Source: Nocardia neocaledoniensis
Lineage (GTDB): Bacteria; Actinomycetota; Actinomycetes; Mycobacteriales; Mycobacteriaceae
Direction of reading: 5' to 3'
DNA: 64,000 nucleotides
NCBI RefSeq assembly: GCF_029868625.1
Contig: NZ_JARWOJ010000136.1
Span: 1 to 64,000 of the forward strand
This document shows positions 53,331-61,091 of this stretch, piece by piece (position 1 is the first letter of the stretch; the number at the start of each line of letters is the position of its first letter). The notes under the pieces were generated by a model. That model had not been told where the DNA came from and did not search any database. It saw only the letters and a list, made by a program, of their open reading frames with translations. Position numbers and translations under genes: made by a program.

Positions 53331-54494
53331 ATGCTTGGACAACTGCGCCCCGCCGCGCGCCGAATCGCCGTGCGCACCTGGTTCGATATCGGGACCGTCG
53401 CGGTCGCGCTGATCCTCTACAGCATCGCCTGGCCGACCCTGTTCGTCACCCACGAGGTGCCCGCGCCGCTCGCCCCGCTGCTCGCCGCGCTCGCGGTGTT
53501 CCCGATCCTGTTCGTGCGGATCAACCCGGCGCTGGGCTGGGCCGTCTCGGCGGGGTCCGCGCTGCTGATCTCGCTGGCACTGTCCTCGACGCCGGGCAAC
53601 GACGTGCCGTTCCAGGTGGTGCACATCATCGTGCTGTTCGTGCTGCTGTTCGCGGTGGCGCTGCGGGCTCCGGTGCCGATCGTCGTGGTGGCCTGGGCGG
53701 CGCAGTCGATGCTGTTCGCCACCACGATGCCCGGCTCGGCCACCGGACCGCTGTGGGGCTGGCCGATCGGGCTCGGCGCCATCGCGCTGTTCGGATACCT
53801 GCTGCGCACGCTGGTCGCCTCGCGGCGCAAGCTCGAACAGCAGGAGGAGGTCACCGAGGTCGAACGCGCGCGGCGGGCCATTCTCGAGGAGAAGGCGCGC
53901 ATCGCGCGTGACCTGCACGATGTCGTCGCCCACCACATGTCGATGGTGGTGGTGCAGGCCCAGACCGCGCCCTACCGGATCACCGACCTCGATCCAGCGG
54001 CACGGACCGAGTTCGAGTCCATCGGCGCCACCGCGCGGACCGCGCTCAACGAGATCCGCGGCATGCTCGGGGTACTGCGCAGCGACGGGCAGTTGCCCGA
54101 GCACGCGCCCCAGCCGCGCGCGGTCGACGTGCCCGAGCTGTGCGCCTCGGCCAAGCGGGCCGGGATGCCGGTCGAGTGGACCGTCACCGGCTCGCTGGAA
54201 TCGGTTCCGGAGACGACCGGGCTCACCATGTACCGCGTGGTGCAGGAATCCATGGCCAACGCGGCCAGGCACGCGCCGGGCGCCCCGGCACTCGTCGCGG
54301 TCGCCGTCGGCCCCGGCGCGGTGACGGTGACCGTCCGCAACGCGGCCTCGGCGACCGTGCCGCGCCCCGGCCTCGGCGGCGGGCACGGCATCGACGGGAT
54401 GCGTACCAGGGTCGAGGCGGTCGGCGGCGAACTCGACGCCGGACCCACCGGCGACGGCGGCTTCGAGGTGTCGGCGAAACTGCCCATCGCGTAG
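53331..54494 (+). CDS. Two-component sensor histidine kinase (HisKA_3 type)
   Basis: 387 aa. The N-terminal ~165 residues contain five or six membrane helices (FDIGTVAVALILYSIAWPT, LLAALAVFPILFV, AGSALLISLALS, VHIIVLFVLLFAVA); the phosphoacceptor motif is RIARDLHDVVAHHMSM (H196), and the HATPase region ends ARHAPGAPALV, GGGHGIDGMRTRVEAVGG. It pairs with the NarL-type regulator 77 bp downstream. The many membrane passes without a periplasmic loop suggest sensing in the membrane, as in DesK or VraS/LiaS-like kinases. Confidence 0.94.
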   Translation: MLGQLRPAARRIAVRTWFDIGTVAVALILYSIAWPTLFVTHEVPAPLAPLLAALAVFPILFVRINPALGWAVSAGSALLISLALSSTPGNDVPFQVVHIIVLFVLLFAVALRAPVPIVVVAWAAQSMLFATTMPGSATGPLWGWPIGLGAIALFGYLLRTLVASRRKLEQQEEVTEVERARRAILEEKARIARDLHDVVAHHMSMVVVQAQTAPYRITDLDPAARTEFESIGATARTALNEIRGMLGVLRSDGQLPEHAPQPRAVDVPELCASAKRAGMPVEWTVTGSLESVPETTGLTMYRVVQESMANAARHAPGAPALVAVAVGPGAVTVTVRNAASATVPRPGLGGGHGIDGMRTRVEAVGGELDAGPTGDGGFEVSAKLPIA

Positions 54495-54571: not shown

Positions 54572-55237
54572 GTGGCAATTACCGTTTTGATCGCCGACGA
54601 CCAGGCGATGGTCCGGCAAGGCTTCGGCGCGCTACTCGGCGCGCAGCCCGACATCAGCGTCATCGGGGACGCGGCCGACGGGCGGATCGCGGTCACCGAG
54701 GCCAAGCGGTTGCGGCCCGACGTCGTCCTCATGGACGTGCGCATGCCCGAGATGAACGGGCTGGAGGCCGCCCGCGCGATCCTGGCCGCCGGCTTCGATC
54801 CGCCGGTGCGCGTGCTGATGCTCACCACCTTCGACATCGACGACTACGTGTACGAGGCGCTGAGCCTGGGCGCGAGCGGGTTCCTGCTCAAGGACGCGCC
54901 CGCCGAGGAGCTCGTGCGGGCGGTGCGCGTGGTGGCCGACGGCGAGGCGCTGCTGGCCCCGACCATCACGCGCCGGCTGATCGCCGACGTCACCCGGCGG
55001 CGCAGCACGGCGCGCACCCCCGCCGCGCCCGCGCTGGCCTCGCTCACCCCGCGCGAACGCGAGGTACTCGAACTGGTCGCCAAGGGACTGTCGAACACCG
55101 AGATCGCTGCCGCGCTGTACGTCGCCGAGCAAACGGTGAAAACCCATGTCTCCAAGGTCTTCTCGAAGCTCGGCCTGCGCGACCGGGCCCAAGCCGTGGT
55201 GCTGGCCTATGAATCCGGCCTGGTCGTCCCCGGCTGA
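54572..55237 (+). CDS. LuxR/NarL-type response regulator
   Basis: 221 aa. Receiver domain with DD pocket in LIADDQAMV, phosphoacceptor in VVLMDVRMPEM (D55), LTTFD and LKDAP. C-terminal LuxR HTH: LASLTPREREVLELVAKGLSN then TEIAAALYVAEQTVKTHVSKVF. GTG start. Convergent downstream is the class-A-like serine hydrolase gene. Confidence 0.95.
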   Translation: MAITVLIADDQAMVRQGFGALLGAQPDISVIGDAADGRIAVTEAKRLRPDVVLMDVRMPEMNGLEAARAILAAGFDPPVRVLMLTTFDIDDYVYEALSLGASGFLLKDAPAEELVRAVRVVADGEALLAPTITRRLIADVTRRRSTARTPAAPALASLTPREREVLELVAKGLSNTEIAAALYVAEQTVKTHVSKVFSKLGLRDRAQAVVLAYESGLVVPG

Positions 55238-55247
55238 GCCGCCGGGC

Positions 55248-56144
55248 TCAGCGCGGGCACACGCCGCCGCGCAGCTCCGGCAGATGCCGGGCCAGCAGCA
55301 ACGCCATCCGGTCCAACAGCGCGGTGGTGTCGTCGAAGGTGCCCGAATCCGCTTGCGCGGCAAGGGCGACCGCCAGCTGGCCGCTGCCCACCGGCACCAG
55401 CCCGAACTGGCGCACCGTGTACATGCCGGTGTCGTCGTCGGGGCCCCAGCCGCCCTTGAACTCGGTGTCGTCGAGCAGGCCCAGACCCCAGCCCTGGTCG
55501 GGGGTGATCTCGCCCATCAGTGTCGTGACCACCTCGGTCTGCGGCAGGCACGGCAGCCGCGAGGCGAAGCGCACCTGATTGGCCAGCGACCATTCGGTGC
55601 CGCCGAACGAGGTGTAGTCGAGTTCGGTGCGCAGGCTCTCCTTGCCTGCCGGGATGTCGCCCGCCTCGTCGAGCACCTGCTGCACGGCCGCGGCCGCCTC
55701 CTCGCCGTCGCCGAGCGATTCCCAGAGCCCGTAGGCGGCGTCGTTGTCCGACACCGTGATCGCGGCCTGCACCATCTCGAAGATCGACTGGTCCTGATCG
55801 TGGCGCAGCGCGGCCACGGCCAGCGGCACCTTCATCGTGGACCAGGCGATGCCGGTGGTCCAGTCGCCGTAGATCGTCATCCGGCCGCCGCCGACGGGCA
55901 TCAGCGCCATCCCGACCTGGCCGGGCAACTGGGCCTGCAACTGGGTGAACTCCGCGGTCAGCGAGTCGGGCCGCATGATCGACAGGCCTGGGTTCCCGGC
56001 GTCCTCACTGCTCACCGCGACCGTCGGGGCACGCACCGCGGCCGGGGCGTCCGGCAACGCGCACGAAGCGCTCAGCGCGGCCGAAACGAGCACCACACTG
56101 TGCAGCAGTCCGCGAACGACCGCTGCCCTCCCTATGGAATTCAC
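55248..56144 (-). CDS. Secreted class-A beta-lactamase-fold serine hydrolase
   Basis: 298 aa with a signal peptide (RGLLHSVVLVSAALSASC); the SAC-like Cys could be a weak lipobox. Active-site elements of the class A/penicillin-binding fold are present: AWSTMKVP (S102, K105) for SxxK, TVSDNDAA (S132-D133-N134) for SDN, and EFKGGWG replacing the usual KTG. Relatives are annotated as serine hydrolases in Nocardia and mycobacteria and often lack beta-lactamase activity; the KGG change and position near sensing and signalling genes fit a cell-wall role. GGAGGA lies upstream of the GTG at 56144. Confidence 0.85.
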   Translation of the reverse strand: MNSIGRAAVVRGLLHSVVLVSAALSASCALPDAPAAVRAPTVAVSSEDAGNPGLSIMRPDSLTAEFTQLQAQLPGQVGMALMPVGGGRMTIYGDWTTGIAWSTMKVPLAVAALRHDQDQSIFEMVQAAITVSDNDAAYGLWESLGDGEEAAAAVQQVLDEAGDIPAGKESLRTELDYTSFGGTEWSLANQVRFASRLPCLPQTEVVTTLMGEITPDQGWGLGLLDDTEFKGGWGPDDDTGMYTVRQFGLVPVGSGQLAVALAAQADSGTFDDTTALLDRMALLLARHLPELRGGVCPR

Positions 56145-56340
56145 CACCGGATCCTCCCCACCACCCACTGCGCGTCGGCGCTGATCTTCGGCGGTGCAAA
56201 CTACTCGTCGAGCGCGTCCGGACGATCCCGGACGACTGATGGCAAGTTTCACCGATTTTCGGCGAGAATTCGAATGAACGTGGTCACACGCGGTCGCGGG
56301 TGCCATGCTGGTCCGCCACGGAGGCCGGAAGGGGGTCGCG

Positions 56341-59300
56341 GTGCTCGAGATTGGTGAGGTGTTCGCCGGGTTCACCGTCGAGCGGACGCTCGGCCAGGGC
56401 GGCATGGGCACGGTGTACCTGGCGCGGCATCCGCGGCTGGACCGGTTGACCGCGCTCAAGCTGCTCAATCGGGACCTGTTCGCCGACGCGCGTATTCGCG
56501 CGCGGTTCGAGCGGGAGGCCGATCTCGCCGCCGGGCTCGACCATCCCGGCATCGTCACCGTCTTCGATCGTGGCGCCGAGGGCGAACAGCTGTGGATCAG
56601 CATGCAGTACGTCGACGGGATCGACGCGGCCACCGTCGACCCGATGACGCTGCCGCCCGAGCGGGCCGTGCAGATCATCGAAGGGGTCGCCGACGCGCTG
56701 GACTACGCGCACGGCAGAGGCGTGCTGCACCGTGACGTGAAGCCGGCCAACATCCTGCTGGCCCGCTCCAGCGGTGGTCAGGGCGAGCGGGTATTCCTCA
56801 CCGACTTCGGGATCGCCCGCCTGCGCGCCGATTCCACCCATCTGACCCAGCAGGGCATGTTCACCGCGACGCTGGCCTACGCCTCGCCCGAACAGATGAC
56901 CGGCGCCGAACTCGACCACCGCTCCGATCAGTACTCCCTGGCCTGCGCCCTGTACTGGCTGTTCACCGGCGTCGCCCCCTTCGATTCCCCCGACCCGAAC
57001 GAGATCATCCGCGGCACCCTGCACCTGCCCCCGCAACCGCTGGCCCTGCGCCGCCACGGTCTCCCACCCGCGCTCGACGCGGTCCTCGCCGCCGCCATGG
57101 CCAAACATCCCGCCGCCCGCTTCGACTCCTGCACCGCCTTCGCCAAGGCGGCCCGCAAGGCCCTCACCTCCAACACCCCACCCGTCCTGCCCCGGCCCGC
57201 GGCCTACTACCCACCCGCTCCCCAGCCGTCCGCGGGTCCGTACCCACCGCCCGCCGCCGGCTACGCGCCCCAGCCGTCCCCGCCGAGACAGCCCGCCCCC
57301 CAACCCCATTGGGCACCCGTCGCACCGCAGGCGGCCGCAGCGCCACCACGCGTACCACCTGCGCCGGCGCCGCCGCACCCTGGCTCCGCCTCGCCCGTTC
57401 CGCATCCGGGTTCCGCTTCGCCCGTTCCGCATCCGGGTTCCGCATCGCCCGCGCCGCCGCATTCGGGTCTTGCTTCGCCTGCGCCGCATCCGGGTTCTGC
57501 TTCGCCCGCGCCGCCGCAGCGGGGGGCCGTTTCGCCTGCGCCGCAGGTGAGCTCGGCTTCACCAGCACTGGTACCGCAGCACTCTGACTCCGTTTCGCCC
57601 GCGCCGCCGCATTCGGGCGCGGTTCCGCCTGCGCCGCACGCGAGCTCGGCATCGCCTGCCCCGGCGCCGCCGCACCCTGACGCGGCTTCGTCTGCGCCGC
57701 AACCTGACTCCGTTTCGCCCGCGCCGCCGCGTTCGGGCGCAGTTTCGCCTGCCCCGCATGCAACCTCTGCTCCACCTGCGCCGGCACCGTCGCACCCTGA
57801 CTCGGCTTCATCTGCGCCGCAGCCGGGCTCGGCTTCGCCCGCGCCGTACGCGAGCGCCGCTTCGCCCGGCGCGCAGCGACCTGTCCCGGTCGTCCACCCC
57901 GAACCCGCGCGCTCTGGGGCACAGCACCCTCCGCAGTCGCCCGGGCCGGCAGCTGGGGAGGCCAACCTCCAGGCCCAGCCCGGGGGAGCGCAACCGCGCG
58001 ATCTGCACGGTGCGGCGCAACACTATTCGGCCGCCCCGCCCGTGGTGCGAGGAGAATCCACACCGCCCGTGGTGGGGCAGGATCTGACACCGTCGCCGTC
58101 GGTGCTGCCCGGCGACGAGCCGGGATCGTCTGTCTCGGGCGGCGCACCGGCGGGGAGTTCGGTAGGTGGGCAGCAGGATGTCACGGCTCACGGAGAGCGT
58201 GCCCAGCCCCGAGATCCGGCGGCCGCGCAGGCCCGCGATCGTGGCGCGGTCGGCGACCGATCCTCGCCGCCGCACCCCGACGGATCCGGGTCGGCGATCA
58301 CCGATGTCGTGCCGATGCCGGAGTCCGCGCGGTGGGCCGCGAACGCGAACGCGCCGACCACCGTCACCTCGATAGCGAGCTCGGCCGGCACCCCCGATCA
58401 GCCTGAAATACTCACTGGTCCAGCGGATTCCGTGGAAGCACCTCCGCTCGTGGATGAAGGTGGTGTCGCCGCTCCGGGCGTCGTCGGTGCTGCCTCCGAG
58501 AAACTACCGGGGTTCGTCGCGGACGAGGTGTACACGTCGGTCGCCGATCCAACCGGTGTCGGCGGCGATGGCGGTGCTTCGTCCGAGGAACTGCCGGGGT
58601 TCGCAGCGGACGAAGCGGGCACGTCGGTCGCCGACCCGGCCGGCGTCGGCGGCGGTTCCGATCCGGCGGGGTCGGACCGGCCACCGAGCGCTGCGGCTTC
58701 GGGCGCCCCGGTCCCCGGTTCGGCCGGTTCCCCCGCGATGACCGGTGCCCCGGGACCTGCCGCAGTAGACGCCGAGGCCGATGCCGCCGGTGAGTCAACC
58801 GATTCGCCTGGAGTTCTGGCGGTGGACGGTGGTGTTGACGTCGACGGCCGCGCTGTCGTCGACGGTGGCGCGGTGGGCGGCGGAACTTCCGCGGGCAACA
58901 GTGGCGCTGCGGCCGGCGGCGCTGGCTCGCCTGACGGCGGTGGCGGTGGCTCGGCCGACGGCAGTGGCTCTGTGGGCGGCGGAACTTCCGCGGGCAACAG
59001 TGGCGCTGCCGTCGGTGGCGGTGGCTCGCCTGACGGCGGTGGCGGCGGGTTGGCCGACGGCGGTGGCGCGGTGGGCGGCGGGACTTCCGCGGGCAACAGT
59101 GGCGCTGCGGCTGGTGGCACTGCGGTCGGTGGTGGCGGTGGCTCGGCAGACGGCACTGGGGGTGGCGCGGTCGGGGACGATGGCGCTGCGGACCCGGACA
59201 AGCCGTTCGACATGGGTGAGAGCGACTCGGCCCCACGGAATGTGGCGCAGCATCATGCGTCCGCTGGGGGGCAAGGTGTTCCGTCGGCCGAAGGCGCGCA

Positions 59301-60069
59301 TCCGGGCCCTGCGCCGCGAGGTGTTCATCCGTATCCCACACCACCGCCGCCGATGGGACGGGCCCGGCCCGGCCCACGGCTGCCCGTGCCGAAGCGGATA
59401 TCGGGTCTGCATCGGCTGGGGTGGTTGGCGCTCGTCGGTCTCGTGGTGGCGCTGGTGGCGTTGCTGGTGGCGCTGGTCGCCGTGGTGTTCGGTGGCGACG
59501 ACGAGGACGCGGCGCCGGATGCCGCCGCGGCGGGTCCGTCGAGTTCCGCTACGACAGTGGGTGATTCGTTCGCGAAGAGTCGGCGCGTGTTTCCGACCTT
59601 GGTCCCGCAGGGCGTCGCGGGCGAGGGTCAGGGTTATCGGGGCGCGCGCTGTTTCGCGGTGCGGTCGGTCAGTGAGCTGGAATGGAAAGAACCGGCACTG
59701 CAATGGAATCCGATCAGCGCCGGCTGGCAGTGTGAGCGCACCGACAACAACGCGGGCTCGGTGAGCTACCTCGTGCTCGAGTACCCCACCGCCGCGCACG
59801 CCCGGTCGGTCGTCGAGGCACTGCCCGCCGCGATCCGCTACCCCGGCGACAAGGACGGCGTCGAATTCGACCTGCGCCGCTGGGTGGTCCCCGACCCCGC
59901 GAGCACCCGCATGAGCACCGCCCATCAGGTGATCGGTTTCCCCGAGGACGACCTGCGCGCGAACTACCTCATCGCCGTGAGCCGCCGCGGCAGCAGCGGC
60001 ACCGCGGGCGCCCCACGCCCCTCCGCCCAGGACGAGGTCACCGCCTGGTGGGAGGACGTTCAACTCTGA
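56341..60069 (+). CDS. Transmembrane serine/threonine protein kinase with very long low-complexity linker
   Basis: 1242 aa. The Hanks-type kinase domain is at residues ~1-275: Gly loop LGQGGMGTVYLA, Lys in TALKLLN (K40), HRDVKPANIL (D132), DFG (D155) and SPEQMTG. Residues ~276-1010 are a low-complexity linker: first Pro/Ala/Ser repeats around SASPAPP, later Gly-rich 33-aa repeats starting VGGGTSAGNSGAA. A single membrane helix (LALVGLVVALVALLVALVAVVF, ~1027-1050) precedes an extracellular ~190-aa domain with two Cys (RGARCFAVR and GWQCERT). The GTG at 56341 has a G-rich ribosome site; ATG 56305 would add 12 aa. Probably senses envelope status. Divergent from the serine hydrolase. Confidence 0.9.
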   Translation: MLEIGEVFAGFTVERTLGQGGMGTVYLARHPRLDRLTALKLLNRDLFADARIRARFEREADLAAGLDHPGIVTVFDRGAEGEQLWISMQYVDGIDAATVDPMTLPPERAVQIIEGVADALDYAHGRGVLHRDVKPANILLARSSGGQGERVFLTDFGIARLRADSTHLTQQGMFTATLAYASPEQMTGAELDHRSDQYSLACALYWLFTGVAPFDSPDPNEIIRGTLHLPPQPLALRRHGLPPALDAVLAAAMAKHPAARFDSCTAFAKAARKALTSNTPPVLPRPAAYYPPAPQPSAGPYPPPAAGYAPQPSPPRQPAPQPHWAPVAPQAAAAPPRVPPAPAPPHPGSASPVPHPGSASPVPHPGSASPAPPHSGLASPAPHPGSASPAPPQRGAVSPAPQVSSASPALVPQHSDSVSPAPPHSGAVPPAPHASSASPAPAPPHPDAASSAPQPDSVSPAPPRSGAVSPAPHATSAPPAPAPSHPDSASSAPQPGSASPAPYASAASPGAQRPVPVVHPEPARSGAQHPPQSPGPAAGEANLQAQPGGAQPRDLHGAAQHYSAAPPVVRGESTPPVVGQDLTPSPSVLPGDEPGSSVSGGAPAGSSVGGQQDVTAHGERAQPRDPAAAQARDRGAVGDRSSPPHPDGSGSAITDVVPMPESARWAANANAPTTVTSIASSAGTPDQPEILTGPADSVEAPPLVDEGGVAAPGVVGAASEKLPGFVADEVYTSVADPTGVGGDGGASSEELPGFAADEAGTSVADPAGVGGGSDPAGSDRPPSAAASGAPVPGSAGSPAMTGAPGPAAVDAEADAAGESTDSPGVLAVDGGVDVDGRAVVDGGAVGGGTSAGNSGAAAGGAGSPDGGGGGSADGSGSVGGGTSAGNSGAAVGGGGSPDGGGGGLADGGGAVGGGTSAGNSGAAAGGTAVGGGGGSADGTGGGAVGDDGAADPDKPFDMGESDSAPRNVAQHHASAGGQGVPSAEGAHPGPAPRGVHPYPTPPPPMGRARPGPRLPVPKRISGLHRLGWLALVGLVVALVALLVALVAVVFGGDDEDAAPDAAAAGPSSSATTVGDSFAKSRRVFPTLVPQGVAGEGQGYRGARCFAVRSVSELEWKEPALQWNPISAGWQCERTDNNAGSVSYLVLEYPTAAHARSVVEALPAAIRYPGDKDGVEFDLRRWVVPDPASTRMSTAHQVIGFPEDDLRANYLIAVSRRGSSGTAGAPRPSAQDEVTAWWEDVQL
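57361..57870 (+). repeat. Degenerate Pro/Ala/Ser-encoding tandem repeats in the kinase gene
   Basis: Repeated units of roughly 30-45 bp encoding SASPAP, PHPGSASP and similar, more than ten copies with point differences. They create a long proline-rich linker after the kinase domain. The GC-rich, strand-symmetric composition also opens long false ORFs on the opposite strand. Confidence 0.85.
58873..59130 (+). repeat. 99-bp tandem repeat, three copies, Gly-rich part of the kinase linker
   Basis: The unit beginning GTGGGCGGCGG recurs at 58873, 58972 and 59071, period exactly 99 bp, so 33 residues are repeated in frame (VGGGTSAGNSGAA then a Gly/Ser/Asp-rich stretch). The third copy diverges after ~45 bp. 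Such in-frame repeats can expand or contract without breaking the reading frame. Confidence 0.9.
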
Positions 60070-60098: not shown

Positions 60099-61091
60099 GT
60101 GAAACTGCTCGTCACCGGCGGTGCCGGATACATCGGCGGCGTGACCGCGCACCGACTCGTCGTCGCCGGGCATGAGGTCCACGTGCTCGACAATCTGGCC
60201 ACCGGCTTCCGGGAGAACGTCCCGGCCGCGGCGACGTTCCACGAGATGTCGGTGCACGACGTGGCCGAGATCCTCACGCCCGGAGCGGGATTCGACGGTG
60301 TGCTGCATTTCGCCGCGTCGATCGAGGTGGCCGAATCGGTACGGAACCCGGAGAAGTACTGGCACAACAACATCGAGGGCTCGTTGGCCCTGCTGCGTGC
60401 GATCCGCCGCGCTGCGGTTCCGCGGTTGATCTTCTCCAGCACCGGCAGCATGTACACCGGCGACGGCCGGACTCCCTTCGACGAACAGGCCGAGGTGCGG
60501 CCGAACAATCCTTACGCCGCGACGAAATTCACCGTGGACCAGATGATCGCGGGGGAGTGCGGCGCCTCGACCACGCTGGGCGCGGCGTCACTGCGCTACT
60601 TCAACGCCTCGGGCGCGGTCCGCACGGCCGACGGTGTGCGGCTCGGCGAGCGGCACGATCCCGAATCGCATCTGATCCCGATCCTGCTGCAGGCGGCCGA
60701 CGGGCAGCGCCCCCGTTTCACCCTCTTCGGCACCGACTATCCGACCGAGGACGGCACCTGCGTGCGGGACTACGTCCACGTCGCCGACCTCGCCGACGCA
60801 CACCTGCTCGCGCTCGACGCGGTCCGGCCCGGCGAACACGAGGTGTTCAACCTGGGCAACGGCCACGGCTTCTCCAACCGCGAGATCATCGACGCCGTGC
60901 TCGCCGTGACCGGCGCGGACTTCCCGATCGACATCGAGGACAGGCGACCCGGTGATCCGGCGGTCTGCGTCGCGTCCTCGGCCAAGGCGCACCAGCGCCT
61001 CGGCTGGACTCCGCGCCGGACGCGGGTCGCGGAGATCATCGGCGACGCGTGGGAATTCCATCGCGCCATGCTGACGGGCGCCGCGCGCTGA
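60099..61091 (+). CDS. galE: UDP-glucose 4-epimerase GalE
   Basis: 330 aa. Interconverts UDP-glucose and UDP-galactose, the source of galactofuranose for arabinogalactan. NAD motif VTGGAGYIGG at the N terminus, SSTGSMY (S113-Y119) and catalytic YAATK (Y139, K143), then YFNASGA and the C-terminal ERRPGDP-like DRRPGDPAVCVASSAKA. GAGGAG before the GTG at 60099; 30 bp after the kinase stop, so read-through is possible. A related substrate (UDP-sugar epimerase) cannot be excluded. Confidence 0.93.
   Translation: MKLLVTGGAGYIGGVTAHRLVVAGHEVHVLDNLATGFRENVPAAATFHEMSVHDVAEILTPGAGFDGVLHFAASIEVAESVRNPEKYWHNNIEGSLALLRAIRRAAVPRLIFSSTGSMYTGDGRTPFDEQAEVRPNNPYAATKFTVDQMIAGECGASTTLGAASLRYFNASGAVRTADGVRLGERHDPESHLIPILLQAADGQRPRFTLFGTDYPTEDGTCVRDYVHVADLADAHLLALDAVRPGEHEVFNLGNGHGFSNREIIDAVLAVTGADFPIDIEDRRPGDPAVCVASSAKAHQRLGWTPRRTRVAEIIGDAWEFHRAMLTGAAR

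Follow-up and report, generated by a model that had tools for sequence, protein, structure and literature searches.

The window analysed here is the 64,000-nucleotide stretch comprising positions 1 to 64,000 of contig NZ_JARWOJ010000136.1 in a Nocardia genome assembly (GCF_029868625.1), and the subject of this work is a gene on its forward strand encoding a receptor Ser/Thr kinase, in which a low-complexity linker of about 763 residues separates the kinase domain from the membrane. The protein is best read as a PknF-like kinase with a PknH-like layout, whose tether is both extreme and evolvable and holds a candidate phospho-docking motif. The principal finding concerns the tether, since comparison of orthologous sequences lends good support to the view that linker length changes by frame-preserving insertions, in many species by tandem duplication, and within a group of nine related species a single internal island with two invariant threonines has been retained.

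The kinase and its repetitive linker

56341..60069, + strand: receptor Ser/Thr kinase gene (GTG start, uninterrupted frame to the stop, 1242 amino acids)
56341..57135, + strand: Ser/Thr kinase domain, PknF-like, residues 1-265 (Pfam Pkinase, E 8.8e-37; best PDB chain 7naa)
57136..59424, + strand: cytoplasmic low-complexity linker, residues 266-1028 (composition, hydropathy, repeats)
57371..57877, + strand: Pro/Ala/Ser-rich tandem repeats, periods 27/57/93/120 bp (Tandem Repeats Finder (TRF), direct repeats)
58270..58392, + strand: conserved island, residues 644-684, with S649, T654 (58300-58302) and T673 (58357-58359) (nine-species linker alignment, profile search)
58485..58654, + strand: 87-bp tandem pair (TRF)
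58865..59159, + strand: 99-bp tandem array, Gly-rich, 3.0 copies, 84% matches (TRF)
59320..59424, + strand: conserved basic juxtamembrane segment, residues 994-1028 (last ~15 residues kept in nine species)
59425..59490, + strand: transmembrane helix, residues 1029-1050 (20-residue hydropathy maximum, mean 3.3)
59491..60066, + strand: extracytoplasmic domain, residues 1051-1242, 192 amino acids (36-sequence alignment; AlphaFold2 model)

The elements of a Hanks-type receptor kinase are present in this frame, namely a kinase domain in which the HRD and DFG motifs are found (HRDVKP at 130, DFG at 155), one transmembrane segment and an extracytoplasmic domain, with the topology assigned by inference; judged from these sequence features, the protein is a single-pass receptor Ser/Thr kinase with an intact kinase domain. 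Hydropathy places the start of the membrane helix at about residue 1029-1031, giving a linker of 763-765 amino acids that is rich in Pro, Ala, Gly and Ser (18% Pro) and holds only 4.7% of the residues Ile, Leu, Met, Phe, Trp, Tyr and Cys. Two cysteines, 1104 and 1131, are located in the ectodomain, and two others, 202 and 264, in the kinase domain. An earlier note, made from the letters of this DNA, had described a giant kinase with a repetitive linker of about 750 residues and an ectodomain of about 190 residues with two cysteines, and the open frame, the in-frame arrays and the measured lengths agree with that description.

Tandem repeats reported by TRF cover 44% of the linker, with a best score of 429, compared with a coverage of at most 5.5% and a score of at most 127 in 200 local codon shuffles. 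The in-frame 99-bp repeat that had been noticed earlier is recovered as a TRF array that withstands this control, and the GGGTSAGN repeat within it, first seen at 58876, agrees with the copy starts proposed at that time. The three copies are 79-86% alike among themselves. As further observations on the same segment, the GC content at third codon positions (GC3) amounts to 0.69-0.74 in the linker (57193-59295) compared with 0.90 in the kinase, and the GC skew flips within the linker. The repeat search returned inverted matches of only 22-33 nucleotides, and the idea that the Gly-rich half is an inverted Pro-rich half was dropped.

The scale of this linker can be appreciated from the other kinases of the same genome, where 44 kinase matches led to 34 further kinase frames. 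At a cut-off of mean hydropathy 2.2 for a transmembrane segment, 18 of the 34 pass, with linkers of 21-152 amino acids, and in one paralog below the cut-off the best hydrophobic stretch lies 202 amino acids from the kinase. The earlier note had given 50-100 residues as usual for actinobacterial receptor kinases.

Evolution of linker length

The distribution of the family was established by an ectodomain search of 148 genomes, consisting of 88 Nocardia genomes (the window's own included) and 60 others of the order. Sequence matches, the weak ones including paralogs, were obtained in 76 of the 88 Nocardia genomes and in none of the 60 others. For comparison, larger stretches were taken from 36 further genomes with a match, namely the 35 highest-ranked and G082 (G004, which ranks between them, was left out, as were 39 weaker ones), to which were added L104, the second locus of the N. 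neocaledoniensis genome G058, and L063 of N. rhizosphaerihabitans, making 39 loci with the window. Kinase and ectodomain share a single open frame at 35 of these, which were measured; the remaining four (L066, L077, L079 and L083) have no kinase match in frame and all lie at contig ends, L064 being the same contig as L066. With L104 taken as a paralog on account of the missing response regulator beside it, 34 orthologous loci remain, the window included.

Across these 34 loci, the linker ranges from 79 to 765 amino acids, the window's being the longest (53 in the paralog L104), and the kinase domains of the 33 other orthologs measured are 73-99% identical to that of the window. The variable-length tether suggested by the earlier note is therefore found between species; variation at strain level is predicted. 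Relative to N. neocaledoniensis, the closest match and a sister species, the linker differs in length by 159 amino acids, and the protein shows a sharply uneven pattern of divergence as measured by identity and by the ratio of nonsynonymous to synonymous substitution rates (dN/dS): the kinase is 99.2% identical (dN/dS 0.01), the ectodomain 93.8% (0.08) and the juxtamembrane segment 91.4% (0.06), compared with 31-53% for the linker, which aligns with many gaps. Within the linker, the proximal stretch and the island reach 79% each, the remainder has a dN/dS of 0.34-0.68 in an alignment that is doubtful there, and more than half of the residues of the 99-bp array stand opposite gaps.

Tandem repeats in the linkers of other species point in the same direction. 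TRF reported 69 rows over 35 linkers, some of them overlapping, and in 67 the period is divisible by 3; the repeated units differ between species. In a midpoint-rooted tree built from the joined kinase and ectodomain pieces, linkers longer than 300 amino acids fall in three separate clades.

A conserved island and the proposed mechanism

The linkers of nine related species (871 alignment columns; the clade member L066, which is cut, was left out) retain one internal conserved block at the chosen threshold, the other blocks adjoining the kinase or the membrane. Of the 111 Ser/Thr found between residues 266 and 1010, T654 and T673 alone are Thr in every one of the nine species; S649 is likewise Ser throughout. 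The two threonines are 19 residues apart in the window. In the nine species, the first of them is separated from the kinase by 194-389 residues and from the membrane helix by 123-377, so that the place of the island shifts and its sequence stays. The earlier suggestion of the linker as a phosphorylation platform can accordingly be narrowed, on this alignment, to T654 and T673 as candidate sites, together with S649.

Outside this group, the island is rarely recognizable. The pattern [APS]T[DET]V[VTA], which was picked post hoc and is descriptive, has 11 occurrences, spread over 9 of the 35 linkers, compared with a shuffle mean of 0.35, and three of those nine linkers, from another clade, carry HPTTVTAY. 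The possibility of a general motif was rejected after a profile search over 86 genomes, covering part of the genus, which gave 20 matches; the five with strong scores (E <= 4.1e-18) all belong to this kinase, and the other 15 have E values of 0.005-0.09. As an observation apart, eight of the weak matches align to the same part of the model (positions 8-26 or 8-28), come from frames of 379-472 amino acids and may represent one recurrent gene.

Two syntenic genes beside the kinase gene enter the proposed mechanism:

53331..54494, + strand: histidine kinase (HisKA_3) (neighbourhood comparison, domain search)
54572..55237, + strand: LuxR-type response regulator (neighbourhood comparison, domain search)

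The response regulator is found close by at all 34 orthologous loci with 85-100% identity, and the histidine kinase at 32 (56-100% identity), the contigs of L075 and L097 ending beside the regulator.

In the mechanism proposed here, the ectodomain would bind an envelope cue and cluster the receptor, the linker would act as a flexible tether allowing the kinase to reach partners far from its membrane anchor, and the island with T654 and T673 would be autophosphorylated and dock either a substrate or a protein with an FHA domain, with the adjoining LuxR-type response regulator as a likely substrate or partner of the kinase. Disorder of the linker is suggested by its low content of hydrophobic residues and Cys and by its hypervariability. 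By polymer scaling, 763 disordered residues would span about 25-30 nm compared with 5-6 nm for 50, and rigid coupling through the membrane is therefore unlikely; a flexible tether that reaches distant partners would also have an exact length that is nearly neutral above a minimum. The link to the regulator is likely, considering the synteny at 34 of 34 loci and the precedent of PknH and DosR (PMC12919924). Taken as a whole, this reading of an envelope-sensing receptor with a flexible tether, an island docking site and the regulator as partner is given an even chance of being correct. A stricter form of it, in which T654 and T673 constitute a private autophosphorylated docking switch on a length-free tether, joining the kinase to the adjacent histidine kinase and response regulator as a mixed Ser/Thr-His-Asp unit of Nocardia, is considered rather unlikely.

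Several observations weigh against the proposed mechanism. Phosphorylation, binding and disorder are all inferred, and by a charge-hydropathy estimate the linker does not fall among disordered sequences (mean H 0.456 compared with a boundary of 0.429). By eye, in sequences compared without alignment, the last ~22 residues of the response regulator contain no Thr, unlike DosR with T198 and T205 (PMC12919924). TRF reports nothing for 11 of the 35 linkers, some of them long (491, 319 and 321 amino acids), and duplication is therefore not visible everywhere. Concerning the island itself, 22 of the 26 linkers outside the nine-species clade show no match even to a looser pattern, and its dN/dS relative to the sister species, calculated from 43 codons only, is 0.44 and thus not low.

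These last two observations, together with the jump of 159 amino acids between sister species despite kinases that are 99% identical, also favour the explanation that the linker is a neutral spacer, passive and prone to slippage, with no docking site and with the island as a slow-evolving remnant. Such an explanation is possible, although on the unlikely side, since it must accommodate an island that is the sole internal conserved block in nine species, with two invariant threonines, and whose distances to the kinase and to the membrane vary. Alternatively, the linker may function as a tuned rheostat, in which a longer tether lowers the effective kinase concentration for trans-autophosphorylation or extends the reach to cytoplasmic substrates, and differences in length are adaptive. 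The occurrence of long linkers in three separate clades is consistent with such tuning, as is the effect on M. bovis virulence hypothesised for a deletion in the proline-rich region of PknH (PMC7785237); the explanation is judged improbable.

An assembly or frame artefact, in which the repeats would be misassembled or the linker would not be one frame, is very improbable: the draft genome of 432 contigs, the lower GC3 of the linker and the locus L083 (1-1497, in a 1,340-contig assembly), where a stop interrupts the frame of the linker no more than 93 bases from the end of the contig, speak for it, and against it stand the single open frame at 34 loci besides the window (measured loci being one-frame loci by definition), which include single-contig genomes with long linkers (G038, 408 amino acids; G044, 508), and the fact that the 99-bp copies are only 79-86% alike, which makes short-read collapse unlikely. 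L083 has a stop, a frameshift or a contig-end error in its linker, representing either a broken gene or an error at the contig end. A general assembly error is unlikely, with the 99-bp copy number here coming from the draft assembly alone.

The proposed mechanism of a flexible tether with a docking site is open to experiment, because the Nocardia family offers natural linkers of 79-765 amino acids on closely similar kinases, making hypotheses on tether length testable, and because two threonines are singled out among 111 linker Ser/Thr in one clade, making the docking hypothesis testable as well. The reason for proline-rich linkers in bacterial receptor kinases is an open question, as indicated for PknH in a published account (PMC7785237).

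Ectodomain, neighbourhood and comparison with known systems

In the alignment of 36 ectodomain sequences, C1104 and C1131 are invariant and may form a disulfide. The AlphaFold2 model built from these sequences is a confidently predicted alpha/beta fold with a mean predicted local distance difference test score (pLDDT) of 85.3 and a predicted template modelling score (pTM) of 0.80. Foldseek returned no match to this model at E <= 0.001. Alignment by VIA-align gave Z values of 8.4 for TiME (7cu8), 8.4 for DcrB, 8.3 for Tsi3 and 6.9 for LpqN, and of 7.7 for the PknH extracellular domain (4esq; root-mean-square deviation 3.5, 128 residues aligned); these values are middling, no structure stands out, and the predicted fold may share only a common arrangement with them. 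No Pfam family reached its cut-off on the ectodomain. PASTA was rejected, with no Pfam match, in agreement with the earlier note, and the NCBIfam PASTA-kinase model scored 250.9 against a cut-off of 450. PknH_C (PF14032) was likewise rejected by sequence (no Pfam match; hhalign probability 7.2%) and was not found anywhere in the genome at E <= 0.001, and DUF7373 (PF24088) was rejected at 16 bits against a cut-off of 27 and an hhalign probability of 2.7%, its sub-threshold match having E 0.011 for the window and occurring in 6 of 36 members (best 2.8e-4). The ectodomain called new by the earlier note is thus new in sequence, with relatives confined to Nocardia in the genomes searched, and less so in its predicted fold, given the resemblance, with middling Z values, to other envelope proteins and the extracellular domain of PknH.

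Further genes surround the kinase and its two syntenic neighbours:

55248-56198, divergent: lipoprotein-like gene adjoining the kinase, present at many but not all orthologous loci
60099-61091: NAD-dependent epimerase gene, downstream of the kinase; of the loci compared, the window and N. neocaledoniensis alone have it

The lipoprotein-like gene has no Pfam match and appears beta-lactamase-like by eye. The epimerase gene is perhaps a recent insertion into a conserved neighbourhood, and an FtsX-type permease is found at many orthologous loci, not all. A second Ser/Thr kinase, with a frame of 1156 amino acids, is located ~7 kb downstream, just beyond the window (L101 16926-19901; contig C135, ~67-70 kb), and shows no clear transmembrane segment in the part examined. 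Elsewhere in the genome, seven of ten DUF7373 matches (L155-L164; contigs C335, C119, C76, C187 and C344) have, by coordinates, a Ser/Thr kinase match no more than ~1.2 kb away, a closeness that suggests partner genes.

Among known systems, PknF-type kinases resemble the protein in the kinase domain, for which the best PDB chain, 7naa (E 5.2e-70), is one that we take to be PknF. The best kinases of four mycobacterial genomes are up to 57% identical to the window's kinase domain, and four mycobacterial kinases that coincide with a PknH_C match in contig and frame length are 54% (one) and 40-44% (three, one of them partial) identical. Of 65 mycobacterial kinase matches, 30 were examined; their linkers measure 29-134 amino acids where a transmembrane segment was found, far shorter than in the window, and the ectodomain profile had no match at E <= 1 in those 30 frames, which were covered up to 1.5 kb beyond the kinase. 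Judged by titles and the beginnings of abstracts, no paper was found that deals with this kinase or with repetitive linkers in kinases of Nocardia. PASTA kinases (PknB/Stk1) have the kinase domain and single-pass topology in common with the protein, which lacks PASTA, and DUF7373 is related to it only by a faint ectodomain match below the Pfam cut-off.

The closest parallel in layout is PknH, which follows the same order of kinase, proline-rich region, single transmembrane segment and extracellular sensor (PMC7785237), and which is reported to phosphorylate the response regulator DosR at T198 and T205, sites said to be at the dimer interface (PMC12919924). The account of PknH also records that some lineages of the tuberculosis complex carry a ~100-bp deletion in this proline-rich region, whose function it describes as unknown (PMC7785237). 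The Nocardia family differs in a linker of up to 765 amino acids and in having no PknH_C sequence match; variation of the linker is known in kind from PknH, and in Nocardia it is far larger and genus-wide.

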